A stretch of 64,000 bases of DNA from Mycobacterium senriense (GTDB lineage Bacteria; Actinomycetota; Actinomycetes; Mycobacteriales; Mycobacteriaceae): NCBI RefSeq assembly GCF_019668465.1, contig NZ_AP024828.1, positions 2,790,001 to 2,854,000 of the forward strand. Reading direction: 5' to 3'. Below are positions 1,968-51,806 of the stretch, piece after piece (position 1 is the first letter of the stretch; every line of letters begins with the position of its first letter). The notes beneath the pieces are model-generated. The model saw only the letters and a list, made by a program, of their open reading frames with translations. It was not told the origin of the DNA and did no database searches. The position numbers and the translations under genes are program-made.

Positions 1968-1982
1968 GAAAATGTAATACTC
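1968..1982. promoter_or_regulatory. GAGAAT-N3-ATTCTC-type site before P450
   Basis: GAAAAT-GTA-ATACTC matches the window's recurring palindrome at 10 of 12 arm positions. It ends 47 bp before the start of the P450 at 2030. Low AT content elsewhere makes it stand out. Confidence 0.5.
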
Positions 1983-2000
1983 ATCCGCGAGAGGCACGTT

Positions 2001-2013
2001 CTCACTAGCCGAG
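2001..2013 (+). promoter_or_regulatory. 13-bp element shared with the TetR promoter at 45.4 kb
   Basis: CTCACTAGCCGAG here is identical to bases 45376-45388, where it is one of several ACTAG(C/T)CG elements around a perfect palindrome beside the TetR gene at 44720. It lies 16 bp upstream of the P450 start. It may be a second target of that TetR protein. Confidence 0.45.
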
Positions 2014-2029
2014 ATTCAAGGAGCAGGAG

Positions 2030-3301
2030 ATGGCGAGCGAATTCTCCGAGTTGGACTTCTTCCGCGGCAGCGAGCTCATCGAGAACCCGTACCCCTACTA
2101 CGAGGCGCTGCGCGAGCGGTGCCCCGTCACGCGGGAGAGCCATCACGAGGTCACCATGATCACCGGTTGGGAAGAGGCGTGCGCGGTGCTCAACGACGCC
2201 GAGACGTGGTCGTCGTGCATCTCGGTCACCGGCCCCTTCCCGGGTTTCCCGGTGCCTATCGAGGGTGACGACATCACCGAGCTGATCGAGCAACATCGCG
2301 ACGAGCTGCCGTTCAGCGACCAGCTGCCCACGCTCGATCCGCCGACCCATACCAACCACCGCTCCCTCATGATGCGGCTGATCACCCCCAAGCGCCTCAA
2401 GGAGAACGAGGACGCCATGTGGGCGCTCGCCGACCAGGCGCTCGACGACTTTCTCGCGCCCGGACGCGGCGAGTGGATCAAGGGCTTCGCCGGGCCATTC
2501 ACGCTGCTCGTCATCGCCGACCTGCTGGGCGTGCCGATTGAGGACCGCGACAAGTTCGTCAAGGGCATCGCTGAGCACGCCGGTGGCGGCGTCGGCGGCA
2601 CCAAGGGATCCCTGGCTCACAGCCCGCTGGAATTCCTCTACGGGCTGTTTTCCGACTACGTCCGCGACCGCCGCCGAGAACCCCGCGACGACGTCCTGAC
2701 CGGGCTCGCGACCGCGACGTATCCCGACGGCTCGGTTCCCGACGTCGAGGACGTGGCCCGCGTCGCCAGCAATGTCTTCTCCGCGGGCCAGGAGACCACC
2801 GTGCGGCTGCTGGGCGCGTCTTTGCAGACGCTGGGGGAGCGCCCCGACATCCAGGCGCAGTTGCGCAAGGATCGCAGTCTGATCCCGAACTTCATCGAAG
2901 AGTCGCTGCGCCACGAGAGCCCGGTGAAGGGCGACTTCCGGATGAACCGGGTGCCGGTCAATGTCGGCGGCGTCGACCTGCCCGCCGGCACCACGGTGAT
3001 GATCCTGCAGGCCGCCGCCAACCGTGATCCGCGCCGGTTCGAGGACCCAGCCACGTTCGATCCGGCCCGCAAGAACGCCCGCCAACACATCTCGTTCGGG
3101 CGCGGCATCCACAGCTGCCCGGGCGCGCCGCTGGCGCGGGCCGAAACCCGGGTGGCGATCGAGCGGTTGCTCGACCGCACGACCGACATCAGGATCGATG
3201 AAAAGGTTCATGGACCGGCAAATGACCGCCGCTACCAATATGTTCCGACGTACATCCTGCGCGGCCTGACCGAACTGCACCTGGAGTTCACACTGGCATG
3301 A
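2030..3301 (+). CDS. Cytochrome P450
   Basis: 423 residues, normal length for a soluble bacterial P450. It has the I-helix oxygen-activation motif A-G-Q-E-T near residues 252-256, the K-helix E-x-x-R at 291-294, and the heme loop F-G-R-G-I-H-S-C with the thiolate Cys at about 363. Start ATG follows AGGAGCAGGAG. It overlaps the downstream ferredoxin by 4 bp, a natural redox pair. It closely resembles the P450 at 47901 (same R-D-P-R-R-F-E segment and the same Y-I-L-R-G-L C-terminal region), so both probably belong to one family. Substrate unknown; context suggests hydroxylation of a lipid or sterol-like acid. Confidence 0.95.
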   Translation: MASEFSELDFFRGSELIENPYPYYEALRERCPVTRESHHEVTMITGWEEACAVLNDAETWSSCISVTGPFPGFPVPIEGDDITELIEQHRDELPFSDQLPTLDPPTHTNHRSLMMRLITPKRLKENEDAMWALADQALDDFLAPGRGEWIKGFAGPFTLLVIADLLGVPIEDRDKFVKGIAEHAGGGVGGTKGSLAHSPLEFLYGLFSDYVRDRRREPRDDVLTGLATATYPDGSVPDVEDVARVASNVFSAGQETTVRLLGASLQTLGERPDIQAQLRKDRSLIPNFIEESLRHESPVKGDFRMNRVPVNVGGVDLPAGTTVMILQAAANRDPRRFEDPATFDPARKNARQHISFGRGIHSCPGAPLARAETRVAIERLLDRTTDIRIDEKVHGPANDRRYQYVPTYILRGLTELHLEFTLA

Positions 3302-3486
3302 AAGTTTGGGTAGACGACCAGAAGTGTCGCGGTCACGGCATGTGTCTCACGCTGTGTCCCGACGTGTTCAGCCTGACCGACGACGGTTACGCCGAGGCCA
3401 TAGATTCCGACGTTCCAACGGAATTGGCGGCGGCAGCTCAGGAGGCAATCGAATGCTGTCCCGAGCAGGCGATCAGCGAGAAGTAA
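3298..3486 (+). CDS. 3Fe-4S type ferredoxin (His variant)
   Basis: 62 residues. Cluster motif C10-R-G-H13-G-M-C16 with the last ligand in C54-P55, as in mycobacterial P450 ferredoxins whose fourth ligand position is not Cys; here it is His. Its ATG overlaps the P450 stop (ATGA), so it is almost certainly the electron donor to that P450. A CC pair (53-54) precedes the Pro, and an extra Cys-Pro occurs at 20-21. The cluster type is inferred from the missing fourth Cys. Confidence 0.93.
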   Translation: MKVWVDDQKCRGHGMCLTLCPDVFSLTDDGYAEAIDSDVPTELAAAAQEAIECCPEQAISEK

Positions 3487-3516
3487 CCAAATACACCGGC
3501 GAGTAAGGAGATTCGA

Positions 3517-3801
3517 GTGGCAAAAGGCTATGTCATCCTCACCGAGGCGATCAAAGACCCGGAAGGCATGAAGGCATACGCCCAAGCCGCCGGATCGGCG
3601 ATGAGTGGCGCCACCGTACTCGCGGTGGACACCGCACCCAAAGTCGTCGAAGGCGATTGGCACGGCGACCAGACCGTCGTCCTGGAATTCGAGTCGGTGG
3701 ACGCCGCCCGGGCGTGGTACGAGTCCGAGGGCTACCAAAAGGCAGCGAAACTGCGGCAGGCGGCGGCCGACTGCAACGCGGTCATCCTCTCCGGACTCTG
3801 A
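3517..3801 (+). CDS. DUF1330 family protein
   Basis: 94 residues, starting at a GTG preceded by TAAGGAG. The pattern K-G-Y-V-I-L-T-E, then V-L-E-F-E-S-V-D-A-A-R-A-W-Y-E-S-E-G-Y is typical of DUF1330, small dimeric alpha/beta-barrel proteins of unknown biochemical role. It is the third gene after the P450 and ferredoxin, so probably co-transcribed, and may bind or turn over the P450 product. It is cytosolic, with no signal or membrane segment. Confidence 0.88.
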   Translation: MAKGYVILTEAIKDPEGMKAYAQAAGSAMSGATVLAVDTAPKVVEGDWHGDQTVVLEFESVDAARAWYESEGYQKAAKLRQAAADCNAVILSGL

Positions 3802-3804
3802 CCG

Positions 3805-4005: not shown

Positions 4006-4016
4006 CGCCAACCCCC

Positions 4017-5222
4017 TTACCGAAGCACCTTGACGGGCACGTTCTTCCAGCCCGCAACGTTCTGCATGTTCACCCGTTTGCACCCCGCCCAGTCCACCTC
4101 GTAGCGCGGCATGAAATCGAGCAGCCGCTCCAGCGCGATCCGGCTTTCCAGGCGGGCCAGTGCGGCGCCGAGGCAGCTGTGGATCCCGTACCCGAGTCCG
4201 AGGTGCTGCGCCTCGGTATGGTCACGCTCGATGTCGAATGTGTCGGCGTCGGTGAACGCCTCCGGGTCGCGGTTCGCCGCGGCGCCGCAGAGGAATACGG
4301 GTTTGCCCGCCGGGATCACGCCACCGCTGACGTGGGCCTCTTTGAGGGTGTAGCGGACGTTGTACTGGACCGGTCCCTCGTAGCGCAGTAGCTCTTCGAC
4401 GGCCCCAGGAATCTTGTCGCGGTCCTCCTGCAGCTTCTGCCACTGGTCGGGGTGGTTGGCGAAGATGACCGCCGCGTTGCCCATCAGCTTGGTGACGGTC
4501 TCGGCGCCCGCGCCGCCCAGAAGGGTTGCGAATCCGCAGATCTCGATGTCGTCGAGCTTGCGCAGCTCGCCATTTTCGCCCGGGATCTCGGCCGCGATCA
4601 GGCGGCTGATCATGTCGTCCTGCGGCTCCTGACGCCGCTCCTGGACCAGGCTGAAGTAGTACATCGCCGTGTCGATGTTGGCCTGCATGCCGGCTTCGCT
4701 GATCTCGATCTGCCCCGGGTCGTGATGCAGACTGGTGTCGATCCAGTGGCGCACCTGCTGGCGGTATTCCTCCGGCACGCCGGCCATCCGGGTGATGACC
4801 TCCACCGGAAAGGGCCCGGAAAAGTCCTGCACGACGTCGAAATTGTCGGAGTCGACGGCGCCGAGGTACTTGTCGATCACCTCGATGATCGTCTCGCGCT
4901 GCGATTGAATGGCCCGCGGAGTGAACGCCTTATTGAGCAGGCTGCGCATGTGGCGGTGCTCCGGCGGGTCCATGAAGATGATCGACTTCTGCTCGGGCGC
5001 GATGCCCCGGCGCACCATCGCCAGGTCGCAGCCGCGCGCCGACGAATACGTCTCGAAGTCCTTGAACGCGGCCGCGACGTCTTCGTGGCGGGTCAGCGCG
5101 TAAAAATCCTCTTTCTCGTCGTAATACAGGGGCGCTTCCTCGCGCATCCGCCGATAGATGTCGAACGGATTGTTGAAGTAGTCCTCGGCGTACGGGTCGA
5201 AGACAACCTTCGGTTTGGTCAC
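4017..5222 (-). CDS. Cytochrome P450 with altered heme-loop Phe
   Basis: 401 residues from a GTG at 5222 that follows GAGGAGG; the frame is open further upstream, but that part has no P450 character. I-helix A-G-A-E-T, K-helix E-E-L-L-R, and heme loop L-G-Y-G-I-H-S-C with Cys near residue 350. The usual Phe seven residues before the Cys is Leu. Such a change can shift heme redox potential but does not rule out activity. It is co-directional with its ferredoxin (11-bp gap) and lies 111 bp downstream of the dehydrogenase operon, so it may have its own promoter. Substrate unknown. Confidence 0.93.
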   Translation of the reverse strand: MTKPKVVFDPYAEDYFNNPFDIYRRMREEAPLYYDEKEDFYALTRHEDVAAAFKDFETYSSARGCDLAMVRRGIAPEQKSIIFMDPPEHRHMRSLLNKAFTPRAIQSQRETIIEVIDKYLGAVDSDNFDVVQDFSGPFPVEVITRMAGVPEEYRQQVRHWIDTSLHHDPGQIEISEAGMQANIDTAMYYFSLVQERRQEPQDDMISRLIAAEIPGENGELRKLDDIEICGFATLLGGAGAETVTKLMGNAAVIFANHPDQWQKLQEDRDKIPGAVEELLRYEGPVQYNVRYTLKEAHVSGGVIPAGKPVFLCGAAANRDPEAFTDADTFDIERDHTEAQHLGLGYGIHSCLGAALARLESRIALERLLDFMPRYEVDWAGCKRVNMQNVAGWKNVPVKVLR

Positions 5223-6946: not shown

Positions 6947-7836
6947 CACCCAGCCTCCAGATCGGATTCGGTGTTCGATGCACGCTCAGTCACGCATTCC
7001 CGGACGAAATCAAGAACTTTCGAGTGGTAGTCCGGGGCGGCGTGGCTGAGGCTGATGTTGTGCGCGGCGCCCGGTTGTCGATGCACGATGAACCGCGGCG
7101 CCCCGGCGAACAGTGCGCCGATCTCGGTCACCGCCGCATCGTCGGTCTGCCAGACCTTTTCGTGCTCGGCGATGCTGAAGTGCACCGGGACGCGCACGGC
7201 GGGCGCCAGCTCCGGAAAGGTCTGTCGCGCCCAGTCCGATACCATCTGGTCCTCGTAAGACGGAGCCGACGGCGAAACCGTGGCTCCGCCGAGGACCTTG
7301 GGCGGGTAGAGTTCCTCTGGGCTCCAGAGCAATTCGCGCATGCCCGACGGGCGGCGTTCGCGGGTAGCCATTTTCAGTATTTCCTTGGCCGCGGGGTGGT
7401 AGTGGCGGCCGGTGCCCGCGAGCTCGATGCCGAGCAGGTCGGCACCCCGGGCGTCGGCGGCCAACCGTATCGTCAGCTCGCAACCGCCCGAATGGCCCCA
7501 CACGAATACGCCTGCGCCACGCGGCCGTTCGCCGAGGATGCGATCGACAGCACCGTAAGCCAGGTTGACGCGCTGCTCACCGGAGACCATCGCTTCGGGA
7601 TAGGGCGCCGAGCTGCCATAGCCGGGCCGATCCAGGGCCACCACGGTGAATCCGGCTGCCGCGCCGGTCCGGGCAAGGGAATACGACGGATGGCCCGGGC
7701 AGTCGAAATACATTGCGGTGGTACCGCCCCCGTGAATCGCCACAATCACGGCCTTGGGGTCTTCGGCTTCGGCGACCAACGCCGACATCGGTACCCCGTC
7801 CACGATCACCAGCCGGGGACGGGGAGCGGAACTCAT
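6946..7836 (-). CDS. Alpha/beta hydrolase
   Basis: 296 residues. Oxyanion H-G-G-G near the N-terminus, nucleophile elbow G-H-S-G-G, and a late H in P-G-A-A-H-N-I. No signal peptide, so cytosolic. It overlaps both neighbours by 1-4 bp inside the operon 9488-5334. It may hydrolyse an ester, thioester or ring-cleavage product of the pathway; substrate cannot be set from sequence. Confidence 0.87.
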   Translation of the reverse strand: MSSAPRPRLVIVDGVPMSALVAEAEDPKAVIVAIHGGGTTAMYFDCPGHPSYSLARTGAAAGFTVVALDRPGYGSSAPYPEAMVSGEQRVNLAYGAVDRILGERPRGAGVFVWGHSGGCELTIRLAADARGADLLGIELAGTGRHYHPAAKEILKMATRERRPSGMRELLWSPEELYPPKVLGGATVSPSAPSYEDQMVSDWARQTFPELAPAVRVPVHFSIAEHEKVWQTDDAAVTEIGALFAGAPRFIVHRQPGAAHNISLSHAAPDYHSKVLDFVRECVTERASNTESDLEAG

Positions 7837-9488
7837 GTGTCGGCCCGCAGCAGGATCACGCCGCTAGGGGTGAGGCCGCCACTACTGACCACACCGACGC
7901 GAGCGTCGGCGACCTGGCGGTCACCGGCCTCGCCGCGAAGCTGGGTGATCGCCTCGTGCAGGAGTCCCATGCCGTGCGTGCGGCCGTGCGAAAGCTGGCC
8001 GCCGTGGGTATTGAGCGGCAACAGGCCGTCGCGCGCAATGTTCTTGCCGCCGTCCAGGAATTCCTTGGCCTCACCGATACCGCAGAAACCCAGCGCCTCG
8101 ATCCAGGACAGGCAGTTGAAGGAAAAGCCGTCGTAGAGCTCGGCGACGTCGACGTCGGCGGGCCGCAGCGAGGTGCGTGTCCACACGTGTGCCGCCTGGC
8201 CCAGTACCTGGGGTTCGTGGGTGAGAGTGCTTTGGTCCCAGTCGAGTCGCTCGACGATCTGCGTACCCACCGCTTCCACCAGCACCGGCGGCTTGGCCAG
8301 GTCGCGGGCGGCGTCGACGGCCGAGACGATGACGGCGATGGCGCCGTCGCACGGCACGTCGCAGTCGTACAGTCCGAACGGTGTGGTGATGGGCCGCGCG
8401 TTGAGGTAGTCGTCCATCGTCATCGGCGTCCGATAGATGGCGGTCGGGTTGAGTTCGGCGTTGGCGCGCTGGTTCAACGCGATCCAGCCCAGCGTTTCCT
8501 TGGTGGTGCCATACCGGTGAAAGTGCCGCTGCGCGTTCATCGCCAACGTGTGTGCCGCCGACGTCGCGCCGAATGGCATCTGCCAGCCCGACATTCGGCC
8601 CATCGACGGGGTGATCTTGCCCTGCTTCATCAGCTCGCCGTTGGTGGCTTCCCACAGCGTGCGGAAGCACAGCACGTGACGCGCCAGCCCGCAGGCGACC
8701 GCGAGCATCGCGGCGATCACCGAGCCACCGGGGCCGAACGTCTCCATCGCGCCGTTGTGCCAAGTCGGCCGGATGCCGAGTGCGCCCTCGAGGGCGGTGG
8801 TGCCGCCCTCCCCGAAGCCGCCGACATTGATCGCGCCGGGGTAGGTGGACAGGCCGTCGATGTCGGCGTAGGTCAGGCCGGCATCGGCGATGGCCGCTTC
8901 GCACGCCTGCACCGTCAGCGCCAGTGGCATCTGCATCAACCGGCGTCCGATCGGCGACGCGCCGATCCCGGTCAGCGCGACCTTGTCCTCGAACTTTTCG
9001 GCGGTCAGCATCGGCCGGACGTGTTCGCCGAACCGTTCCGGCGCGATCTCATCACCCGGTAGGGGACCGGACTGCCCGTCGGCACGCGGCTTGAACAGCG
9101 GAAACCACACATCCTCGACCTGCTCGAAGACGACCTCGACCTGTTCGCCGAGTTCGAGCTGATCGGGTTCGCACTCGACGATGTTGGTGGTCAACCGAAC
9201 CCGCGGGTCCTCGGCGATCGCCACTTGCGCAATTACGTAGGGCGCCGCCAGTCCGGGCAGGCTGAACCGTTCGTTGACGGTGAATCCGGCGAGCGTCGCC
9301 CGGCCCGAAACTGCCCGCACTCCGATGTCGCGGGACCGGCAGTACCGGCAGACCGGCGCGGGTGGATGGATCAGCGATTCACAGGCCCTGCATTCCTGCA
9401 GCCGTAGCTTTCCGTCGGCGCCGGACTTCCAGAAAAACTCGTTCTCCTGCGTGACCTGGGGCAATGGGCGGCCCGGCGCTGCTGACAC
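7833..9488 (-). CDS. Fused DUF35 (zinc ribbon/OB-fold) and thiolase-like aldolase/lipid-transfer protein
   Basis: 551 residues. Residues 1-130 are a DUF35 protein: two Cys pairs (C-R-A-C and C-R-Y-C, the zinc ribbon) followed by an OB-fold. From about 165 onward is a thiolase of the SCP2/Ltp type with E-L-Y-D-G-F-S-F and the loop G-G-Q-L-S-H-G. In mycobacterial steroid side-chain degradation Ltp2 acts as a retro-aldolase in complex with a separate DUF35 partner; here both are one chain. It heads the operon 9488-5334, with the recurring operator 60 bp upstream. Likely role: C-C bond cleavage of a beta-hydroxyacyl-CoA, by analogy. Confidence 0.87.
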   Translation of the reverse strand: MSAAPGRPLPQVTQENEFFWKSGADGKLRLQECRACESLIHPPAPVCRYCRSRDIGVRAVSGRATLAGFTVNERFSLPGLAAPYVIAQVAIAEDPRVRLTTNIVECEPDQLELGEQVEVVFEQVEDVWFPLFKPRADGQSGPLPGDEIAPERFGEHVRPMLTAEKFEDKVALTGIGASPIGRRLMQMPLALTVQACEAAIADAGLTYADIDGLSTYPGAINVGGFGEGGTTALEGALGIRPTWHNGAMETFGPGGSVIAAMLAVACGLARHVLCFRTLWEATNGELMKQGKITPSMGRMSGWQMPFGATSAAHTLAMNAQRHFHRYGTTKETLGWIALNQRANAELNPTAIYRTPMTMDDYLNARPITTPFGLYDCDVPCDGAIAVIVSAVDAARDLAKPPVLVEAVGTQIVERLDWDQSTLTHEPQVLGQAAHVWTRTSLRPADVDVAELYDGFSFNCLSWIEALGFCGIGEAKEFLDGGKNIARDGLLPLNTHGGQLSHGRTHGMGLLHEAITQLRGEAGDRQVADARVGVVSSGGLTPSGVILLRADT

Positions 9489-9547: not shown

Positions 9548-9562
9548 GAGAATTACGTTATC
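9548..9562. promoter_or_regulatory. GAGAAT-N3-ATTCTC-type site before DUF35-thiolase operon
   Basis: GAGAAT-TAC-GTTATC, 10 of 12 arm positions. It lies 60 bp upstream of the start at 9488 and in no likely coding region. Confidence 0.5.
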
Positions 9563-17392: not shown

Positions 17393-18538
17393 TCAGAGCA
17401 CCCGGGTCTGACCCTCGAGTACCGGAACGGTCTCGGGCAGGTGATAGGTCGCGATGCCGTTCTTGTACATGACCGCGTCGCGGGCGTGCTTGGGCAGGTG
17501 CTTGACCAACCAGCGCGGGTCGTCGAACGTCCAGTGCGGGTAGTCCGAGGAGAACAGCAGGATCTTCTCGCACTCCATCCATTCCAGCGCGCGGGTCAGT
17601 TCGGTCTTGTCCTCCGGATAGTCCAGCGGCTGGGTGGTGAACTTGATGTGGTCCTTGACGTACTCGCTTGGCTTGCGCTTGATGTCGAGCCACGACTTGC
17701 GTGCGTCGTAGATCGCGTCCATGCGCCACATCAGCGGCAGGATCCAGCTGAATGCGTGCTCGACGAAGACGATCCGCAGCGTCGGGAACCGGTCGAAGAC
17801 ACCGTCGAAGATCAGGCTCATCACCTGGTTGGCCGCCAGCAGGGAGTAGGTCACCATGAAGTCGTGGTTGTAGCTGGGGAACCCGACCGGCGGGATCGGC
17901 AGCTCATCGAACTGGCTGCGTGACAGGTGGCAGCTCACGGTGATGTCGTGCTTGGTGGCGGCCGCCCAGATCGGGTCGTACTTCGGGTGGCCCCAGGACG
18001 GCCGCGGCTCGGCCTTGATCAGAATCTGTGCCATGAAGGGGTGTCCGGCCCAGCGTTCGATCTCGCGCACCGACTCTTCCGACTCCTCGATCGCGATACA
18101 GATCGACCCGCGCCACCGTTCGTGCCAGTTGTTGTGGCTGTCCAGCCAGTGATTGGCCTGCCAGTCGTTCAGCGCGGCCGACATCGCATGCTGTGCTTCG
18201 GGAATGCGTGCCGGGTAGGCCGCGGGTTCCAGGATAGCGATGTCGGAGCCGGCCTCCATGATCAGCTGACGGAACGCCAAATCCGGGTCGCTGCACGGGA
18301 ACTCGCCGTTGGCGGGGAAGGAGTCCACGCGCATGGCGTAGGAGTGTGCGTAGTCCGGGGCGTCGTAGTAGATCTGCTCGCCAACGGAGCGAGTGAGGAA
18401 GTACTTGCTGCGCCACGGCTCGGGGATGTACGGGAGTAGCTCTCCGCGCTTGGGCGCCGGGTGAACATCCGAGTCGACGCAGCGGACGGCTATGCGCTCG
18501 GTAGCGGGAACCCGCTCCTGCGAATGGGTCAACGTCAT
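17393..18538 (-). CDS. Amidohydrolase family 2 protein
   Basis: 381 residues from the ATG at 18538; the longer frame runs into the upstream gene. Metal-site residues of the TIM-barrel amidohydrolase-2 family are visible: D-S-D-V-H near residue 23, a central S-C-H, and S-S-D-Y-P-H-W near 345. The family includes decarboxylases (ACMSD-like) and hydratases of ring-cleavage products. It is a paralogue of the next gene upstream (18568). The normal metal-binding D-x-H is D-V-H here. Confidence 0.87.
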   Translation of the reverse strand: MTLTHSQERVPATERIAVRCVDSDVHPAPKRGELLPYIPEPWRSKYFLTRSVGEQIYYDAPDYAHSYAMRVDSFPANGEFPCSDPDLAFRQLIMEAGSDIAILEPAAYPARIPEAQHAMSAALNDWQANHWLDSHNNWHERWRGSICIAIEESEESVREIERWAGHPFMAQILIKAEPRPSWGHPKYDPIWAAATKHDITVSCHLSRSQFDELPIPPVGFPSYNHDFMVTYSLLAANQVMSLIFDGVFDRFPTLRIVFVEHAFSWILPLMWRMDAIYDARKSWLDIKRKPSEYVKDHIKFTTQPLDYPEDKTELTRALEWMECEKILLFSSDYPHWTFDDPRWLVKHLPKHARDAVMYKNGIATYHLPETVPVLEGQTRVL

Positions 18539-18567: not shown

Positions 18568-19668
18568 CTACTCTGCGCCCACCCCGGCGGGAATGTCTAT
18601 GCCGTAGAGCTGCGCCGCGTTGCGCCAGCACAGCTTCTCGCGCTGCTCGGCGGACAACGCGCTGGGCAACTTCGTGACATCACCGCACTGCCAGTGTGGA
18701 TAGCTCGAGCCGAACATCACCATGTCGTCTTTACCGGTGAAGCCGAACCATTCGCCGGCGAACTCGACGTCGCCGGGCCCGTCGAGACTGCCCTGAACGA
18801 AATACACGTGACCGGGCAGATAGTCGCTGGGAATTCGCGGAGCCCATGGTGTCTGCTCCAGGTGCGGTCGGCCGAAGGTGTCCATCCGCCAGATGAACGG
18901 CGTGATGAAGTCGGCGGCGCCATCGCCCCATACGAACTTGAGGCCGTCGAATCGCTCGAATACTCCCTCGGCGATCATGTTCATCTGGTGATACAGGTAG
19001 TTCAGCGCCATGAAGCTGACGTACTGCTCGTAGGTACGGGTGTTCCCGTTCGGCGTCGGCGGAAACGCGATGCCCGACCCGACTTCGATGTGCGCGGCGA
19101 CGGGAAGCCCGGCGTCGACGGCGGCCTCCCAGATCGGCCAGAACTGCGGTTTTCCGTAGAGATCGCGGGACTGCAGCGGCACGCCGATCTGGACCACCCG
19201 CGGATGCGCGCGCCATCTCTCGATCTCGCGCAGCGCGCCCGGGATGTCGTCGGGGTTGACCCGGATGGTGCCGCGGAACCGCTCGCCGAATTGGCTGGAC
19301 TCCAGCCAATTCGACACCATCATCTCGTTGTGCGCGGCGTGCAGCGCGCTGCCCAGGTGCCGGTCCGGCATGATGCCGCGCGCCATCGGGTGCAGGACCG
19401 CAACATCGACGCCGCGCTTCGAAAAAAGTTCATTGGCAACGAAATCCGGGTCGGAACCGGGGTATTGGCGGTCGGGGCCCTCGGTGTTGGGCGCGTACTC
19501 ACCGCCGGGGGCGCCGTACCAGTCCATCTCGTAATCCGGAAAGCCGCGGCTCTTGAACGGCTCACGCAAAGTCTTTCGCAGCGCTTTGTTGGACGGGAAG
19601 AAGATGTGCACGCTCGCGTCGATCAACGGCGTGCTGGTTCCATCAGCGTGTGTGATCACGAGCGCCAC
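18568..19668 (-). CDS. Amidohydrolase family 2 protein
   Basis: 366 residues, GTG start. D-A-S-V-H-I-F-F-P at the N-terminus, A-A-H-I-E-V near 190, and F-G-S-S-Y-P-H-W near 340 are the barrel metal and active-site segments; the usual late Asp of S-D-Y-P-H is replaced by Ser (S-S-Y-P-H), which may mean altered metal use. First gene of the operon 19668-16111. Its promoter region holds the recurring operator at 19835. Confidence 0.87.
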   Translation of the reverse strand: MALVITHADGTSTPLIDASVHIFFPSNKALRKTLREPFKSRGFPDYEMDWYGAPGGEYAPNTEGPDRQYPGSDPDFVANELFSKRGVDVAVLHPMARGIMPDRHLGSALHAAHNEMMVSNWLESSQFGERFRGTIRVNPDDIPGALREIERWRAHPRVVQIGVPLQSRDLYGKPQFWPIWEAAVDAGLPVAAHIEVGSGIAFPPTPNGNTRTYEQYVSFMALNYLYHQMNMIAEGVFERFDGLKFVWGDGAADFITPFIWRMDTFGRPHLEQTPWAPRIPSDYLPGHVYFVQGSLDGPGDVEFAGEWFGFTGKDDMVMFGSSYPHWQCGDVTKLPSALSAEQREKLCWRNAAQLYGIDIPAGVGAE

Positions 19669-19834: not shown

Positions 19835-19849
19835 GATAATACCATTCTC
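19835..19849. promoter_or_regulatory. GAGAAT-N3-ATTCTC-type site before amidohydrolase operon
   Basis: GATAAT-ACC-ATTCTC, 11 of 12 arm positions. It lies 167 bp upstream of the start at 19668 in a gene-free stretch, between that start and the end of the dehydrogenase gene at 19909. Confidence 0.5.
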
Positions 19850-19908: not shown

Positions 19909-20805
19909 CTACTCCGAAGACCCGCCCACCGTGACGCCGGCGGCCCGCTCGAACGGTTTGATCACCGTCGTGAAATCGGAGTCGGGCCCTTTTTCGGCGC
20001 GGGCGAGCGCCTCCCACAGCCGGCCGACAGTCTCGGCAACCTCGGCGGGCACACCAAGCGCTCTGGCTTCATCGAGATAAAGGCGCACATCTTTGAGCAT
20101 CAGCCCGGTGGCAAAGCCGTAGTCGAAGGTGCGCGGCAGGATCGCGCGGGGGAACTTGTCGCGGCTCGCGCTCGTCGCACCCGATCCCGCATTCAGCACC
20201 TCGATCATCACGCCGGGATTTAGGCCGGCTTTGACGCCCATCACGACGACTTCCGCGGTCGCGGTCAGCACATTTGCCGCCAAAATGTTGTTCGCCAGCT
20301 TCATCGTCTGCGCCGAGCCGGGCTTGTCGCCGACATACACCGGCCGGCCCAGTGCTTCGAGCGCGGTTCGCACGGCGTCGAATTCGTGGCGCGGGCCGGA
20401 CACCATCAGCGCAAGAGTGCCGTTCTCGGCCCCGCCGAGGCCGCCGCTGACCGGGCTGTCCATCGCCACGATATTGCGCTGGGCCAGCAGGCCGTGGATC
20501 TGCATCGCCATTTGGCTACCGACAGTGGACAAGTCGACGTAGCGCTTCACCCGTGCACCTTCGATTACTCCCGCCGGACCGGTGGCCACCTCGAGTGACG
20601 CGCCCGGTGTGGGCAGGCTGGCCAGCACCGTGTCGGCGCGATCTGCGACCTCTTTGGGCGATGACGCCGAGCGTGCTCCCAGGGCGACGACGCGCTCGAG
20701 GGCCTCGCCGCGCGTGTCGAAGGCGACGACATCATGTTTTTCACCAATGAGGCGACATGCCATGGGAAAGCCCATGTTTCCCAGCCCGATGAACCCGACG
20801 TCCAC
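19909..20805 (-). CDS. NAD(P)-binding dehydrogenase, 3-hydroxyisobutyrate dehydrogenase family
   Basis: 298 residues. Rossmann motif G-F-I-G-L-G-N-M-G, D-S-P-V-S-G-G, catalytic Lys in G-S-A-Q-T-M-K-L-A-N-N. This is the most canonical of the three family members in the window and probably oxidises a beta-hydroxyacid with NAD(P). It lies 8 bp after the CMD-family gene in a two-gene operon. The three copies are clearly diverged from one another, so they are not recent duplicates. Confidence 0.9.
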   Translation of the reverse strand: MDVGFIGLGNMGFPMACRLIGEKHDVVAFDTRGEALERVVALGARSASSPKEVADRADTVLASLPTPGASLEVATGPAGVIEGARVKRYVDLSTVGSQMAMQIHGLLAQRNIVAMDSPVSGGLGGAENGTLALMVSGPRHEFDAVRTALEALGRPVYVGDKPGSAQTMKLANNILAANVLTATAEVVVMGVKAGLNPGVMIEVLNAGSGATSASRDKFPRAILPRTFDYGFATGLMLKDVRLYLDEARALGVPAEVAETVGRLWEALARAEKGPDSDFTTVIKPFERAAGVTVGGSSE

Positions 20806-20813
20806 GCTGCGCC

Positions 20814-21194
20814 CTAGCCCCGGTCCAATTCGGCGAACGCCTCGTTTGCGATGCGAAAGCTGTCGACGGCGGCCGGCACACCGGCGTAGATGGCCACCTG
20901 CAGGAAGACCTCGCGGATTTCCTCACGGGTGACACCGTTGGTCAGCGCCGCCTTGACGTGGGTGCGTAATTCGTTGGGCCGGTTGAGCGCTGAGATCATC
21001 GCCAGGTTGAGCATGCTGCGGGTTTTTCGCGGTAGTTCCTCGCGGCCCCACACGGCGCCCCAGCAGTATTCGGTGACGAGGTCTTGCAGGGGTCCGGTGA
21101 AGTCGTCCGCGTTGGCCAATGCGCGGCTGACGTACTCCTCGCCCAGCACCTCGGAGCGGATTTGCAGCCCCCGCTGGTAGGTTTCGCGATCCAA
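20814..21194 (-). CDS. Carboxymuconolactone decarboxylase family protein
   Basis: 126 residues, the full length of a single CMD domain. It has the PcaC-like pattern: R-G-L-Q-I-R-S-E-V-L-G near the N-terminus, D-L-V-T-E-Y-C-W-G, then L-R-T-H-V-K-A-A-L-T-N-G-V-T-R-E-E-I and Q-V-A-I-Y-A-G-V-P-A-A. It lacks the C-x-x-C-H peroxidase motif of AhpD-like members, so it is of the decarboxylase type. It precedes a dehydrogenase in the same operon. Likely role: a decarboxylation or isomerisation step; substrate unknown. Confidence 0.9.
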   Translation of the reverse strand: MDRETYQRGLQIRSEVLGEEYVSRALANADDFTGPLQDLVTEYCWGAVWGREELPRKTRSMLNLAMISALNRPNELRTHVKAALTNGVTREEIREVFLQVAIYAGVPAAVDSFRIANEAFAELDRG

Positions 21195-21455
21195 TGTTTT
21201 CCCCTTCAGTTCGGGGCAGCGGCCGCGATGTTGTCGTAGGTGCGCGCTGCCGAGGTTCCGATTGCCTGAGCGCAGTCTTGCATCATCGCCGCTCCGCGGC
21301 GTCTACAGTCGAGTTTCAGATGGGTCTGCCCGCTTGTGTCATCGTTCCGTCGGCGAGAATGCTGAAATGTAGCCGACGCCCAATCACCCTGCAGAGCTTG
21401 GGAATACGAGCTCACGGCGCGGGCCGGCGGCACCCCTAGACGTTGAGGAGAAGCA

Positions 21456-22127
21456 GTGAGCGGAGCGAGCGCGGACATCTGGGAAGTGATGTCGACGGCC
21501 CGAACGATCCGGCGCTTTACCGACGAACCGGTGGACGATGCAACTCTGGCGCGCTGCCTCGAGGCGGCCAGGTGGGCCCCCTCGGGTGCGAACGCGCAGG
21601 GCTGGCGTTTCGTGGTGTTGCGCTCGCCTGAGCAGCGGGCCGTGGTGGCCAAGGCCGCGGCCCACGCGCTGGAAGTGATCGAGCCGGTCTACGGCATGAG
21701 CCGGCCTGCCGTCGACGACACCAGCCGCCGCGCCCGTACCTACCGTGCGACGTATGAATTGCACGACCGGGCCGGTGAATTCACCTCGGTGCTGTTCGCC
21801 CAGGCGCACTACCCGACCGCGTCGGAGCTCCTGCTGGGCGGCTCGATCTTTCCCGCAATGCAGAACTTCCTGCTGGCGGCGCGCGCCCAGGGACTCGGCG
21901 CCTGTCTGACCAGCTGGGCCTCGTATGGCGGTGAACAGCTGCTGAGGGAAGCCGTCGGCATACCGGAGGGCTGGATGGTCGCGGGCCACATCGTGGTCGG
22001 GTGGCCGAAGGGCAATCACGGGCCGCTGCGCCGTCGCCCGCTTGCCGAGTTCGTGAACCTCGACCGTTGGGACAACGCCGCCGATGGCCTCGTCGAGGGT
22101 GCGCTCGGCGGGGATGGCCCGCATTGA
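21456..22127 (+). CDS. Nitroreductase family protein
   Basis: 223 residues from a GTG preceded by GAGGAGAAG. FMN-binding pattern R-T-I-R-R-F-T-D-E-P and A-A-R-W-A-P-S-G-A-N-A-Q near the N-terminus, and G-L-G-A-C-L-T-S-W near 150. Family members reduce nitro groups, quinones or enoates with NAD(P)H. The 261 bp before it, shared with the divergent CMD operon, hold only a single GAGAAT half-site (21354). The acyl-CoA dehydrogenase pair follows in the same direction after an operator, so it is probably a separate unit. Confidence 0.9.
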   Translation: MSGASADIWEVMSTARTIRRFTDEPVDDATLARCLEAARWAPSGANAQGWRFVVLRSPEQRAVVAKAAAHALEVIEPVYGMSRPAVDDTSRRARTYRATYELHDRAGEFTSVLFAQAHYPTASELLLGGSIFPAMQNFLLAARAQGLGACLTSWASYGGEQLLREAVGIPEGWMVAGHIVVGWPKGNHGPLRRRPLAEFVNLDRWDNAADGLVEGALGGDGPH

Positions 22128-22167: not shown

Positions 22168-22182
22168 GAGAATGTTATTCTC
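22168..22182. promoter_or_regulatory. Perfect GAGAAT-N3-ATTCTC operator
   Basis: GAGAAT-GTT-ATTCTC, both arms perfect. It ends 30 bp before the start of the acyl-CoA dehydrogenase gene at 22213, the place expected for a repressor site over the promoter. Confidence 0.65.
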
Positions 22183-29397: not shown

Positions 29398-29445
29398 CGC
29401 TCTAGTCTCCCTACGTGTTTCGCTGGCTAAGGACCCGGTGCCGGC

Positions 29446-29646
29446 TCAGGCGTCGTCGGTGATCATGATGGCCTGCTCGGGGCAGGACTGCGCGGCTTCG
29501 CGCACCTGGTCCTCGCGATCGGCGGGCACCACCTCGTCGATCGCCGACGAACTGCCGTCGATGTCGCTGAGCTGGAACGATTCCGGAGCGATCATCGCGC
29601 ACAGGGTGTGGCCCTGGCACCGTTCTGAATCCACCCAGACCTTCAC
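29446..29646 (-). CDS. 3Fe-4S type ferredoxin (His variant)
   Basis: 66 residues, ATG start. C10-Q-G-H13-T-L-C16 and C55-P, again with His at the fourth ligand position, as in the ferredoxin at 3298. Lies between an SDR and a P450 in one operon and most likely reduces that P450. No dedicated ferredoxin reductase is encoded beside it. Confidence 0.93.
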   Translation of the reverse strand: MKVWVDSERCQGHTLCAMIAPESFQLSDIDGSSSAIDEVVPADREDQVREAAQSCPEQAIMITDDA

Positions 29647-29698
29647 GGGCTTTCTCCTCTCACACTGGTTGCCGGGTATCGCGGACGAATCGCCACGC

Positions 29699-30460: not shown

Positions 30461-30475
30461 GAGAACCTTACTCTC
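30461..30475. promoter_or_regulatory. GAGAAT-N3-ATTCTC-type site before SDR operon
   Basis: GAGAAC-CTT-ACTCTC, 10 of 12 arm positions, with the two mismatches at mirror positions, so the site remains a near-palindrome. 60 bp upstream of the SDR start. Confidence 0.5.
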
Positions 30476-30637: not shown

Positions 30638-30652
30638 GAGAATGAAATTATC
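30638..30652. promoter_or_regulatory. GAGAAT-N3-ATTCTC-type site before CoA-transferase
   Basis: GAGAAT-GAA-ATTATC, 11 of 12 arm positions, 88 bp upstream of the CoA-transferase start at 30741. Confidence 0.55.
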
Positions 30653-30740
30653 GTGATCGCCACCACATTAGGGGGTACAGAATGCCTGCCCAGGACACGG
30701 CAGAGCCCGCCCCAGCCGCCTCAGCGAAAGGAGCCGGCGC

Positions 30741-44279: not shown

Positions 44280-44294
44280 GAGAATTTTCTTTTC
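44280..44294. promoter_or_regulatory. Weak GAGAAT-N3-ATTCTC-like site
   Basis: GAGAAT-TTT-CTTTTC, 10 of 12 arm positions, 20 bp before the start chosen for the exported protein at 44315. The mismatches are on one side only, so it may be chance. Confidence 0.25.
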
Positions 44295-45322: not shown

Positions 45323-45330
45323 GCACCGAG

Positions 45331-47881: not shown

Positions 47882-47920
47882 CGCCCGCGAGCGAAAAGCC
47901 CTACGCCACCGGCGCTACCG
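47876..47920. terminator. Inverted repeat at convergent 3' ends
   Basis: CGGTAGCGCC (47876-47885) and GGCGCTACCG (47911-47920) are perfectly complementary, with a 25-base loop spanning both genes' ends. The loop is long for a terminator, so confidence is moderate. Confidence 0.4.
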
Positions 47921-49196
47921 CGTCCGCGGTGGTGAAACTCAGGTGCAGTTCGCTCAGGCCGCGCAGGATGTACGTCGGCTCGTAGGTGTAGCGGCGCTCG
48001 GCGGCCGGCCCGTGACGGGCTTCGTTGATCTCGATGTGCGGCATCCGGTCCAGGATCCGCTCGATCGAGACACGGCCCTCGACGCGGGCGAGCGGGCCGC
48101 CGGGGCAGGAGTGCACACCACGGGCGAAAGCCATGTGTTCGCGGACGTTCTTGCGGCGCAGGTCGAACTCGTGCGGGTTCTCGAACCGGCGCGGGTCGCG
48201 GTTGGCCGCGCCCGGCAGGATCATCACCACGGTGCCGGCGGGGATGTCCACCCCGCCGATGGTGGTCGCCTTGCGGGCCAGCCGGGAGTCGCTCTTGACG
48301 GGGCTGTCCATCCGCAGCGATTCCTCGATGAACCCCGGGATCAGGCTGCGGTCCTCACGCAACTGCTGCTGGATGTCGGGCCGGTCACCGATTACCTGCA
48401 GCGCGGCGCTGAGCAGCTTCGCCGTGGTCTCCTGTCCCGCGGCGAAAAGGAACGTCGCCGACCGGACGACCTCGATCACCGGAGGCGTCGAGCCGTCCGG
48501 GTACTTCGCTTCCGCCAGGAACGTCAGCACGTCGCCGCGCGGTTCGCGCCGCCGATCCTCGATGTAGTTACAGAACTTGTCGTCGAGCCACTCGAGCGGA
48601 TTGATGCCCACCGACTCGTGGTCCAGGGCACCCACCCGCGTCTCGGGGCGGTCGGCCCCCAAGACCTTGCGAAACTCCTTGTGGTCCTCCAACGGCACGC
48701 CGAGCAGGTCGGCGATCACCAAGGTGGCGAAGGGCTTTGAGTATTCGGCGATGAACTCGCACTCACCGGTGCCGAGGAACTCGTCGAGCTGACGATCGGC
48801 CAGGCGCCACATGAACTCTTCGTTCTGCTTGAGCCGGCTCGGGGTGAGCAGCTTGGCGAGCACCGATCGTGCCTTGGTGTGTTCCGGCGGGTCCATGGTG
48901 ACCATGTGCTCGTTCATCGGGAAGGAGCTGCGGTGCTGGTCGATCTGCGGGGTGATGTCATCGCCTTCGGGCGTGAAGGGAAGCGGCGGGAACGGACCGC
49001 CGAGCGCGACGATGTTGGAGAACGTCTCCGGGTCCTTGTAGATCTCGCAGGCTTCGTCGTAACCGGTGACCGCGACGACGCCGTAGTGCGGCAGGCGCAG
49101 CACCGGGTTCTGGCTGCGCAGGTAGTCGAAGTACGGGTGCGGATCTGGGACCAGTGACGGATCGGTGAAGAAGTCGATCGAGTCGAAGGTGCTCAT
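47901..49196 (-). CDS. Cytochrome P450
   Basis: 431 residues. I-helix A-G-Q-E-T-T, K-helix E-E-S-L-R, heme loop F-A-R-G-V-H-S-C with Cys near residue 364. It is closely related to the P450 at 2030 (both have L-V-I-A-D-L-L-G-V-P and A-A-N-R-D-P-R-R-F-E), but has no ferredoxin gene beside it. It must take electrons from a ferredoxin encoded elsewhere, such as that at 3298. It ends at the oxidase-like operon and is divergent from the TetR at 49389. Confidence 0.95.
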   Translation of the reverse strand: MSTFDSIDFFTDPSLVPDPHPYFDYLRSQNPVLRLPHYGVVAVTGYDEACEIYKDPETFSNIVALGGPFPPLPFTPEGDDITPQIDQHRSSFPMNEHMVTMDPPEHTKARSVLAKLLTPSRLKQNEEFMWRLADRQLDEFLGTGECEFIAEYSKPFATLVIADLLGVPLEDHKEFRKVLGADRPETRVGALDHESVGINPLEWLDDKFCNYIEDRRREPRGDVLTFLAEAKYPDGSTPPVIEVVRSATFLFAAGQETTAKLLSAALQVIGDRPDIQQQLREDRSLIPGFIEESLRMDSPVKSDSRLARKATTIGGVDIPAGTVVMILPGAANRDPRRFENPHEFDLRRKNVREHMAFARGVHSCPGGPLARVEGRVSIERILDRMPHIEINEARHGPAAERRYTYEPTYILRGLSELHLSFTTADAVAPVA

Positions 49197-49278
49197 CGGA
49201 TTGCGTCTCCCTGGGCTGGGTTACCGGTGGTATTCGGCGGCACGTCGCTACCGCCGCCCGATTTCGAGATCGAAACTT

Positions 49279-49296: not shown

Positions 49297-49388
49297 ATGG
49301 CGGTAATGTCAGGGTCAAGGTCGCAACGCCGCGCCACGATACGATCCGTGTGGTCGGCACGGGATGGCACACAGTACGGAGCAGGGAC

Positions 49389-50108
49389 ATGACATCGGCC
49401 CGCAGAATCGGGGCGCCGGACGCGAAAAACCGTGTCTTGTTGCTCGACGCGGCCGAGCGGCTGATGCTCGAAGAGGGCTATGCCGCCGTCACGTCGCGGC
49501 GCCTGGCGAACAAGGCAGGGCTGAAGCCGCAGCTGGTTCACTACTACTTCCGCACCATGGAGGAGCTGTTCCTCGAGGTTTTCCGCCGCCGCGGTGAAGA
49601 AGCGCTCGAGGTGCACGCGCAGCTGATGAAGTCGCCGCAGCCGCTGTGGGCGCTGTGGCGGTTCGGCACCGATCCCGCATTCACGCGCATTTCCATGGAA
49701 TTCATGGCGCTGGCCAATCACCGCAAGGAGATGCGGGCCGAAATCGCTTATTACGCCGAGCGTTTCCGCGAAGCGGAACGCCAAGCGGTGGCGACGGCGC
49801 TGGAGCGCTACGGCTCCAGAATTCAAGACGAGGGCCAGGACATCGACATTCCTCCGGTGGTGTGGACCGTGCTGATGAGCAGCCTGTCGCGCTTTCTGGT
49901 GCTCGAGCGGGCGATCGGTATGTCCGCCGGCCATGCCGAGACGGTGGAGTTGGTCGAGAACTACTTGCGCCGCCTGGAAGGCGAACCGCAGCCGATCGAG
50001 GGTGTACCGGAGACCTGGCTGGTTCACCAGTTCCGCAGCGAGCAGAGCACGCCTTTGGGGCCGTCCTTGGATACGACCACGGCGCCGTCCACCGCCAGAT
50101 CACAATGA
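49389..50108 (+). CDS. TetR/AcrR family transcriptional regulator
   Basis: 239 residues from the ATG at 49389 after GGAGCAGGGA. HTH at about residues 28-50 (V-T-S-R-R-L-A-N-K-A-G-L-K-P-Q-L-V-H-Y-Y-F-R). Long acidic C-terminal part. Divergent from P450 47901, with the inverted repeat at 49279 between them. Its 3' end overlaps the convergent MmpS-like gene by 85 bp, an unusually long antisense overlap. Confidence 0.9.
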   Translation: MTSARRIGAPDAKNRVLLLDAAERLMLEEGYAAVTSRRLANKAGLKPQLVHYYFRTMEELFLEVFRRRGEEALEVHAQLMKSPQPLWALWRFGTDPAFTRISMEFMALANHRKEMRAEIAYYAERFREAERQAVATALERYGSRIQDEGQDIDIPPVVWTVLMSSLSRFLVLERAIGMSAGHAETVELVENYLRRLEGEPQPIEGVPETWLVHQFRSEQSTPLGPSLDTTTAPSTARSQ

Positions 50109-50461
50109 AGTCCCGGCGTGCCGGGCTCCGTGCCCGTGCTCGCCACGACCATCGCGTAAACGTCGGGATTCGACATGTCCAGATCGAAGCCCCACGGCTT
50201 GCCCGGGGCCAGGTCGACGTCGACGTGTGGGGTGAACGAGTAGGGGTTGTGGCTGTAGTCGGAAAATTTGTCCGGCTGATGGTCCAGGTAATAGATGCTG
50301 GTATAAATCGGATTCTGCGTGCTGACGGTGTATCTGACGTGATGCATGACCGGGTTATCGGCATGCGCCCGTCCGGTTCCCACCAGCAGACCCGCTGCTG
50401 CCAATAGAGAAGCCAACGACACGATGGAGCCGACGCCCATCACTGTCTTCATCGTGGTCAT
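50024..50461 (-). CDS. Exported MmpS-like protein
   Basis: 145 residues from the ATG at 50461 (GGAGGAG upstream). Signal peptide/anchor M-G-V-G-S-I-V-S-L-A-S-L-L, cleavage near R-A-H-A-D. The mature domain resembles MmpS C-terminal domains: V-R-Y-T-V-S-T, I-Y-Y-L-D, A-P-G-K-P-W, L-H-C-D-L-A-V-D-G and C-S-L-R-N-W. No MmpL is near. The start overlaps the enoyl-CoA hydratase stop (ATGA), so the two are co-translated; an export or sensing role for the pathway is possible. Confidence 0.75.
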   Translation of the reverse strand: MTTMKTVMGVGSIVSLASLLAAAGLLVGTGRAHADNPVMHHVRYTVSTQNPIYTSIYYLDHQPDKFSDYSHNPYSFTPHVDVDLAPGKPWGFDLDMSNPDVYAMVVASTGTEPGTPGLHCDLAVDGAVVVSKDGPKGVLCSLRNW

Positions 50462-51213
50462 GACGCTCCTCCGGATGCCGGGCGCGGCTTGGCGTTGCGG
50501 TTCATCACCCGTTCTGCGGCCTGCCAGTGCGGGTCGGCAACCCATAGCCGTGCGAAGGATGCTATCGCCTCCTCAGCAGAAACTCCGCGGATTACCCGCT
50601 TTATCTCGGTCGCCGGCCTGCGTGCCAGCGAGCGGGCGACCGCTCGCCACCCATGATCGGGTGAGTCGAACACGCCGCGGGGTATGACCTGATCCACCAA
50701 GCCGATGCGTTCGGCATCGGCCGCGGTGAGGGCGGTTCCCGAGCCGGCCAACAGCAGCGCCCTGCTCGTGCCGACCAGCGCGGCCAGCCGCTCGGCTCCG
50801 CCCCAGGCCGGCATGATTTCGAGCTGCACCTGGTTGAAGGCGATCTTGATGTCGTCGGCCGCAACCCGGATGTCGGCGGCGACGGCGACTTCGGCCCCGC
50901 CGCCGAACGCGTGGCCGTTGAGCGCGGCGATGACGGGAGCGGGGAAATCCGCCAGCTGATCACAGATGGACCGCATCCGCCGGGCCATGGCCGCGGCGTC
51001 CTCCTCGGTCCGCAGTGCGCTCAATTCCTTGAGGTCGCCGCCGGAGACGAACGCTTTGTCCCCGGCACCCTTGATCACCAGCGCCTGCGCGCCGGCCGCC
51101 GCATCGAGCGCCTTCTCCAGCTGGTCCATGGTGTCCAGGCCGATGGCGTTGCGCGCCTGCGGGCGATCGATGGTGACCACCGCCAGCCCGTCGTCGATCT
51201 CCAGGTCCACCAT
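50458..51213 (-). CDS. Enoyl-CoA hydratase/isomerase (crotonase family)
   Basis: 251 residues from the ATG at 51213; a longer frame upstream has no family character. Crotonase signatures: T-I-D-R-P-Q-A-R-N-A-I-G, F-V-S-G-G-D-L-K-E-L, and N-G-H-A-F-G-G-G-A-E-V-A-V-A-A-D. Oxyanion-hole glycines are present; the second catalytic Glu region reads E-I-M-P-A-W-G-G. Hydrates an enoyl-CoA in beta-oxidation. Two operator copies lie 28-64 bp upstream. Confidence 0.92.
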   Translation of the reverse strand: MVDLEIDDGLAVVTIDRPQARNAIGLDTMDQLEKALDAAAGAQALVIKGAGDKAFVSGGDLKELSALRTEEDAAAMARRMRSICDQLADFPAPVIAALNGHAFGGGAEVAVAADIRVAADDIKIAFNQVQLEIMPAWGGAERLAALVGTSRALLLAGSGTALTAADAERIGLVDQVIPRGVFDSPDHGWRAVARSLARRPATEIKRVIRGVSAEEAIASFARLWVADPHWQAAERVMNRNAKPRPASGGAS

Positions 51214-51240
51214 GTGTGTATCGCTCCTCGACAAAAAGCC

Positions 51241-51255
51241 GATATTGGCATTCTC
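51241..51255. promoter_or_regulatory. GAGAAT-N3-ATTCTC-type site before enoyl-CoA hydratase (1)
   Basis: GATATT-GGC-ATTCTC, 10 of 12 arm positions with the right arm perfect. 28 bp upstream of the start at 51213. Confidence 0.5.
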
Positions 51256-51262
51256 TTTTCGC

Positions 51263-51277
51263 GAGAATAACATCATC
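51263..51277. promoter_or_regulatory. GAGAAT-N3-ATTCTC-type site before enoyl-CoA hydratase (2)
   Basis: GAGAAT-AAC-ATCATC, 10 of 12 arm positions with the left arm perfect. Its centre is 22 bp from the first site, two helical turns, so two dimers could bind side by side. Confidence 0.5.
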
Positions 51278-51321
51278 GCTGCAGGCCAAAGAATGTCGTC
51301 AGCCAGGATGAAGGTGACTCG

Positions 51322-51741
51322 ATGCGGAACCGAATCGTGGCCGCCGCTGCGGTCCTTACCGTTGCGTTGGCTGGCGGGTGCACGTCGAAGCCAACAACCC
51401 AACTCGCCAGCACGGCGTCCGTCACCGTGAACGGTAACGACCGAAACTTCCACATCGTGAAGTGCAGCCAGCGGGAGTGGAGCCGGACGATCGAAATCGG
51501 CGGCAATTTTGCCGGCGCCAAACTCGTCATCGACGAGGGCGCGCAACCGGCGACGGTCGAGTCGGTACACATCCAAAACCTGGGTGGCTTCAGCGGCATG
51601 TACTCGCGGGGCGACGGCGGCAGCGCGGACATGAGCATGACGGGCGACAAATTCACCGTGTCAGGCACCGCCAACGGTTACAGAACCGACAAACCCGGTG
51701 AACCGGCCGACGCCACCTACAAGATCTTCGTGTCGTGCTGA
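51322..51741 (+). CDS. LpqH-like (19 kDa antigen family) lipoprotein
   Basis: 139 residues. Signal peptide with lipobox L-A-G-G-C at residue 20, then the LpqH pattern: V-T-V-N-G-N-D and a final set of strands ending K-I-F-V-S-C; Cys in V-K-C-S-Q near 48 probably pairs with the last Cys. Mycobacterial surface lipoprotein, mostly beta structure, function unclear. It is divergent from the enoyl-CoA hydratase and stands alone. Confidence 0.9.
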   Translation: MRNRIVAAAAVLTVALAGGCTSKPTTQLASTASVTVNGNDRNFHIVKCSQREWSRTIEIGGNFAGAKLVIDEGAQPATVESVHIQNLGGFSGMYSRGDGGSADMSMTGDKFTVSGTANGYRTDKPGEPADATYKIFVSC

Positions 51742-51791
51742 GCACGTCGAACCGGGATTCGGCGGGACCGCGTTGCGATTAGCCGCCTGTA

Positions 51792-51806
51792 GAGAATAGT
51801 ATTCTC
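51792..51806. promoter_or_regulatory. Perfect GAGAAT-N3-ATTCTC operator
   Basis: GAGAAT-AGT-ATTCTC with both arms perfect; the wider sequence AGAATAGTATTCT is a near-complete palindrome. Ends 22 bp before the amidohydrolase start. Confidence 0.65.

Follow-up and report, generated by a model that had tools for sequence, protein, structure and literature searches.

A GAGAAT-N3-ATTCTC palindrome before scattered catabolic operons of Mycobacterium senriense and its candidate TetR-family repressor

The DNA considered here, called the window throughout, is a 64,000-nucleotide stretch of the 5.83-Mb genome of Mycobacterium senriense (contig NZ_AP024828.1, G000:C1 in our numbering, 2790001-2854000), in which several catabolic genes and operons are preceded by copies of a 15-bp palindrome, GAGAAT-N3-ATTCTC. 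A sequence-only reading of the window had proposed this palindrome as a shared operator, and all of its sites were re-found at the positions claimed, with the mismatch counts listed below. We describe these sites together with a TetR-family protein encoded outside the window that probably reads them. Positions up to 64,000 refer to the window and larger ones to the contig, and proteins are named by their positions; all matches to the palindrome come from a motif scan.

1968-1982, plus strand: putative operator, two mismatches, before a CYP150A6-like P450
2030-3301, plus strand: cytochrome P450, closest solved relative CYP150A6 (6dcd, 508 bits)
9548-9562, minus strand: doubtful operator, two mismatches, before the ChsH2-like/thiolase fusion
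7833-9488, minus strand: OB_ChsH2_C plus thiolase fusion protein (PF12172, PF01796, PF22691)
19835-19849, minus strand: putative operator, one mismatch, before an amidohydrolase-fold gene pair
18568-19668, minus strand: PF04909 protein (2808568), possible partner subunit, three of six dinuclear ligands changed
17393-18538, minus strand: PF04909 protein (2807393), candidate catalytic oxygenase subunit, all six AibH2-type ligands
22168-22182, plus strand: perfect putative operator before an acyl-CoA dehydrogenase pair
22213-24370, plus strand: two acyl-CoA dehydrogenase genes (PF00441; PF00441, PF02770, PF02771)
30461-30475, minus strand: putative operator, two mismatches, before the SDR-ferredoxin-P450 operon
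28033-30400, minus strand: short-chain dehydrogenase/reductase (SDR, 29699-30400), 66-residue ferredoxin (29446-29646) and P450 (28033-29397)
30638-30652, plus strand: putative operator, one mismatch, before an aldehyde dehydrogenase remnant and a CoA-transferase
30741-31946, plus strand: class III CoA-transferase (PF02515)
44280-44294, no strand assigned: weak match, two mismatches, probably outside the regulon
51241-51277, minus strand: two weak putative operators (51241 and 51263), two mismatches each, 22 bp apart, before an enoyl-CoA hydratase
50458-51213, minus strand: enoyl-CoA hydratase (PF00378)
51792-51806, plus strand: perfect putative operator before an amidohydrolase-fold/FadD3-family pair
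51829-53019, plus strand: PF04909 protein (2841829), all six dinuclear ligands (279.3 bits to 4dzi, 76.7 to PtmU3)
53060-54463, plus strand: FadD3-family acyl-CoA ligase (PRK07656, 733.9 bits, cut-off 657)

At up to three mismatches the window contains 21 matches, as against 11.9 expected (standard deviation 3.4), a number reached in none of 100 shuffles; matches with three mismatches are therefore mostly background. The whole genome contains eight perfect sites and three with one mismatch, and seven of the eight perfect ones fall between 2733300 and 2841806, that is, inside 110 kb around the window. With two mismatches allowed there are 73 sites genome-wide versus 10 for the reversed pattern, a control that is biased at this level because the reversed pattern contains TAA; perfect matches to the reversed pattern number zero in the genome and one when a single strand was counted across the 148 genomes of the genus set. 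Within 360 kb around the window there are 7, 9 and 16 sites at no more than zero, one and two mismatches, and 20 first-order Markov simulations of 360 kb gave means of 0, 0.3 and 4.65. In the same 360 kb, 14% of which is intergenic, all seven perfect sites, both one-mismatch sites and six of the seven two-mismatch sites lie between genes, as do 19 of the 56 three-mismatch sites, intergenic status being assigned throughout with a simple gene caller of our own. The strong sites are thus located in gene-free DNA, as had been claimed, rather than occurring at equal density inside genes. When spacers of 0-10 nucleotides were allowed, the spacer was exactly three in all 235 GAGAAT...ATTCTC pairs found in 2.66 Mb of pooled loci, which were taken from DNA around the system and are not a random sample. 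Two more strong sites lie far from the cluster, at 2248075 and 99895 (loci L001 and L009), where they precede, as judged by eye, a phosphotransferase-like gene and, by about 60 bp, an SDR-like start, respectively. The mce operon, the P450 genes at 4017-5222 and 47901-49196 and the NuoF-like unit were correctly described as devoid of the motif, having no nearby site with two or fewer mismatches in this genome; homologues of the P450 at 47901-49196 in two relatives (G082 and G022, 54 and 52% identical) do have a nearby site.

The regulator had been expected outside the window, and a TetR-family candidate is encoded 11.2 kb to its left: a protein of 216 amino acids (2778113-2778763, minus strand) whose gene is flanked by perfect sites at 2778032 and 2778886. 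It has an N-terminal helix-turn-helix domain (PF00440, 31.5 bits, cut-off 24, residues 34-79), its AlphaFold2 model (mean pLDDT 84.7) consists of ten helices in an all-helical two-domain fold, and the top matches in a fold search with this model are TetR proteins. The gene is next to an SDR gene and an acyl-CoA dehydrogenase-like gene (2779006, so read from its sequence), and its nearest named orthologue, at 99% identity, is that of Mycobacterium colombiense NS-7390, the genome's own records possibly having been excluded. Among 80 named loci, a site with at most one mismatch precedes the gene in 79 and lies 3' of it in 72, the exception to the former being M. tilburgii (L134), which keeps the TetR gene and has no such site in the 14 kb examined. 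A further site, which lies 7-9 kb upstream of the gene (at 2786358 here, with the Rieske oxygenase unit on one side and the DitZ-like gene 2786735 on the other), was found in 71 of the 74 loci of sufficient length. At these sites the half-sites are preserved and the three spacer bases vary, and the helix-turn-helix is nearly invariant among 17 aligned orthologues (78-97% identity to the first). Inside the window, the count of three TetR genes given by the sequence-only reading is reduced to two: among five genes scanned with Pfam as possible regulators, TetR_N is present in 750-1364 and 49389-50108, 21456-22127 matches Nitroreductase, and 26013-26585 and 54460-55086 have no Pfam match.

Some genomes carry two copies of the candidate, an example being G022 (G022:C1:838834 and 4174181, 81 and 78% identical to the query). 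M. senriense itself encodes two paralogues, at 1668875 and 3513932, which are 34 and 35% identical to the candidate, and near them only weak operator matches were found, the best having two (1667849) and three (3514560) mismatches. A different perfect repeat, GTGGTAAC/GTTACCAC, lies beside the second paralogue; in locus L201 (8185-9390 and 9428-9445) the paralogous TetR gene with this repeat also adjoins another protein starting like the amidohydrolase-fold protein at window 51829, an arrangement that suggests a sister system.

The distribution of the candidate and that of the palindrome are closely matched. A close orthologue is found in 122 of the 148 genomes of the genus set (G009 and G098, whose only matches have E-values of about 1e-27 and 1e-24, were counted as lacking it), and perfect sites occur in 120 of these 122 genomes (mean 6.5) versus 2 of the 26 others (one each, mean 0.08). 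Across 251 genomes of the family, the TetR gene is present in 64, spread over 9 of 31 genera; 61 of the 64 have perfect sites, exactly one site is found in 16 of the 187 genomes without the gene, and none of the 54 genomes with two or more sites lacks it. Two other regulators of the region were set aside as readers of the motif, since TetR 2765240 and IclR 2747492 have orthologues in only 30 and 24 of these 54 multi-site genomes. The divergent IclR/hydrolase promoter (2747492-2748296) has no motif here, a perfect one in G082 and one with two mismatches in G006, G034 and G022.

Conservation was followed in six relatives (G046, G006, G034, G082, G022 and G117) over 60-120 kb per region, and most of the window sites are kept. 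Those before 2808568 (19835) and 2812213 (22168) are present in all six relatives, that before the amidohydrolase-FadD3 pair (51792) in all three in which the gene was found, and that before the SDR gene (30461/30638) in all five that have the gene. The site before the CYP150A6-like P450 (1968) is matched with at most two mismatches in five of the six and is perfect in G022, and the double site 51241/51263 is kept at the same 22-bp spacing in two of three relatives, G046 and G006, with neither copy in G034. In terms of gene-genome pairs, a site occurs in the relative in 62 of 81 pairs for genes with a site here versus 18 of 370 for genes without, neither the pairs nor the relatives being independent, and sites shared by divergent genes counting twice. 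The site at 9548 is matched in only one of the six relatives, the closest one, G046, and is held doubtful as an operator. The match at 44280 exists as claimed and recurs in G046 (231:2); G034 has a match at another distance (91:1), with a 41%-identical homologue. Being poorly conserved, it is dropped here and is probably not part of the regulon.

Two rearrangements support the view that the operators act as units. The first concerns the amidohydrolase and acyl-CoA dehydrogenase pairs, which in four relatives (G034, G082, G022 and G117) diverge around one intergenic region that holds both sites; here, as in G046 and G006, three genes (19909-22127) separate the two pairs, with a site kept on each side. 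These three genes encode 3-hydroxyisobutyrate dehydrogenase-like, CMD family and nitroreductase proteins. In the second, five of the six relatives have an aldehyde dehydrogenase gene (PF00171 in G046) that separates site 30638 from the CoA-transferase gene; of it the window (30638-30745) retains no more than a short remnant, which starts at 30682, and the CoA-transferase thus stands directly under the operator. An operator upstream of the CoA-transferase is present here as had been stated, its direct adjacency being a property of this genome.

The units with sites include a CYP150A6-like P450, the SDR-ferredoxin-P450 unit, a Rieske oxygenase unit, acyl-CoA dehydrogenases, an enoyl-CoA hydratase, acyl-CoA ligases (one of the FadD3 family), a CoA-transferase and five PF04909 proteins. 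Among the last, the 2786735 protein matches DitZ (structure 8uyr) with 371.6 bits and PtmU3 with 108.5 bits, and the 2807393 protein scores 178.9 bits to AibH2 (6m1w_B) and 198.8 to 8sm7; a structure model of 2786735 (pLDDT 45) was too poor for use. The dinuclear centre of AibH2 is ligated by D25, H27, H211, E265, D337 and H340 (PMC7782822), and all six positions (D-x-H, H, E, D-x-x-H) are kept in four of the five PF04909 proteins, 2731288, 2786735, 2807393 and 2841829. The label amidohydrolase, under which these proteins first appeared, is therefore probably wrong for most of them, which we predict to be oxygenases of the AibH2/PtmU3 type, members of the class of amidohydrolase-related dinuclear oxygenases defined in PMC10811679; because the PF04909 family also includes carboxylases, hydratases and hydrolases (PMC10811679), this function is inferred. 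In the fifth protein, 2808568, two of the six ligands are replaced by Ser and the Glu by Asp, and with three ligands changed it could act as a partner subunit, the role of AibH1 beside AibH2. A gene for a possible redox partner, a Fer2 ferredoxin, lies within the transcription unit of 2731288; none was seen directly adjacent to 2841829, whose neighbour is the FadD3-family ligase. The similarities to DitZ, PtmU3, FadD3 and ChsH2 suggest that the enzyme set breaks down ring-bearing acids, and from these similarities a steroid, a diterpenoid and another terpenoid substrate cannot be told apart.

The idea of scattered operons under one repressor, first formed from the window alone, is supported by the genome scan, by conservation in relatives and by co-occurrence with the candidate TetR. 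We consider GAGAAT-N3-ATTCTC to be the operator of this single conserved repressor with a probability of about 0.85. A TetR dimer would bind the palindrome at and close to the promoter of its own gene and those of some dozen catabolic units inside 110 kb, a few further operator sites lying elsewhere in the genome, and would block these promoters until a pathway intermediate, most likely an acyl-CoA ester by analogy with KstR2, released it and induced the set; the enzymes of the set would together make up a single CoA-dependent route for ring-bearing acids. In three targets (2779006, 2733386 and window 51829) a TTG-type hexamer can be seen by eye 16-18 bp before a TAnnnT that lies inside the operator, as expected for repression. 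A wider proposal, to which we give slightly less than an even chance, is that this undescribed master repressor and operator serve many Mycobacterium species and, within the family, eight or more further genera, and that the pathway they control is a single CoA-dependent one for a multi-ring acid, terpenoid-like or other, with several dinuclear oxygenases of amidohydrolase fold working beside a P450 and a Rieske oxygenase.

A number of observations weigh against assigning the sites to the candidate. Several window sites carry two mismatches. The TetR gene is present and a perfect site absent in G056 and G089 of the genus set and in G241, G344 and G351 of the family set; the perfect site closest to the gene lies immediately 3' of it in G290 and G378, and G371 has none adjoining the gene. 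The direction of control, repression, is taken from the TetR family. The comparison with other regulators comprised TetR 750-1364, TetR 2765240 and IclR 2747492, and one of those compared, TetR 750-1364, covers 51 of the 54 multi-site genomes, almost as well as the candidate. It is for this reason the most plausible alternative reader, a regulator of the same gene set that travels with the module: it occurs in 54 of the 251 family genomes, all of which hold the candidate as well. We regard that explanation as improbable. In three genomes with the candidate and without TetR 750-1364, perfect sites persist, numbering 6 in G177, 4 in G262 and 2 in G226. No site with two or fewer mismatches lies directly before TetR 750-1364, which follows genes 2786735-2790620 on the same strand, and it is the candidate's own promoter, in 79 of 80 loci, that carries one.

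A marginally weaker contender is that the palindrome is the published motif X, which was assigned to the TetR protein orthologous to Rv0767c of M. tuberculosis and found before phytosterol-induced operons in Mycobacterium sp. VKM Ac-1817D (PMC6593523). The motif X regulon, like that proposed here, contains P450s, SDRs, aldehyde dehydrogenases and its own TetR gene (PMC6593523). However, the binding sites of Rv0767c are described as rich in GAC and GTC and poor in TAA and TTA (PMC10312376), a preference that is unsuited to GAGAAT/ATTCTC and speaks against identity; the TetR gene of that regulon, G155_05115, has P450 genes at neighbouring locus numbers, whereas the candidate adjoins SDR and acyl-CoA dehydrogenase-like genes, and the word amidohydrolase does not occur in the main text of PMC6593523. 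Hardly any credence is due to the notion that the palindrome is a chance or structural feature with no regulatory role. Two-mismatch sites do occur across the whole genome, and those at 44280 and 9548 are poorly conserved; against this stand the absence of perfect sites from all 20 Markov simulations as compared with seven observed, the intergenic position of all nine strong sites, the invariable spacer length, the preservation of the half-sites while the spacer bases vary, and the co-occurrence with one regulator.

If the candidate does read the palindrome, a vaguely annotated cluster of P450, FadD/FadE and 'amidohydrolase' genes can be tested as a single unit that has an operator and a named candidate for its regulator, and searches with the operator could recover the remaining pathway genes elsewhere in the family. 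Four proteins that would otherwise pass as hydrolases are singled out as candidate members of the young PtmU3/AibH2/SfbO oxygenase class. Identifying the inducer would show what the natural substrate is of a pathway that is common among the mycobacteria sampled, and if the wider proposal above holds, the regulon itself would chart the missing pathway and new oxygenases.

A literature text search with the literal motif string gave no match, although motifs drawn as logos escape such a search, and no paper describing the candidate regulator was seen among the matches listed (titles and abstract starts); we take this to be a TetR-controlled catabolic regulon whose regulator and operator are apparently undescribed. 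The KstR and KstR2 regulons of cholesterol catabolism in mycobacteria and rhodococci are organized in the same way, with a TetR-family protein and palindromic operators before scattered catabolic operons. The half-sites of the KstR and KstR2 operators, TnnAACnnGTTnnA and AnCAAGnnCTTGnT, differ from GAGAAT-N3-ATTCTC, and the mce operon of the window, in a further difference, has no site. Orthology of the candidate to KstR or KstR2 was rejected, with phmmer E-values of 0.0012-0.0026 that rank below several other TetR proteins. KstR2 responds to the acyl-CoA ester HIP-CoA (PMC6593523). The motif X/G155_05115 regulon resembles the present one in that a TetR protein is assigned to P450, SDR and dehydrogenase operons and has a site close to its own start codon (PMC6593523), and is probably set apart by the GAC/GTC preference of Rv0767c (PMC10312376) and by gene neighbourhood, motif X itself having been published as a logo image. 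Rv0078, EthR2 and the FadR of Bacillus halodurans have the same TetR fold as the candidate at 17-19% sequence identity, a likeness that is silent on operator and ligand. The MmGI-1 island, to judge by its published description, has a different mce/TetR gene set (PMC4263727). As for the enzymes, AibH1H2, PtmU3, SfbO and DitZ (8uyr) have in common with four of the five PF04909 proteins of the regulon the ligand set D-x-H, H, E, D-x-x-H, and the aib genes are under a LysR regulator (PMC7782822), unlike the TetR control proposed here.

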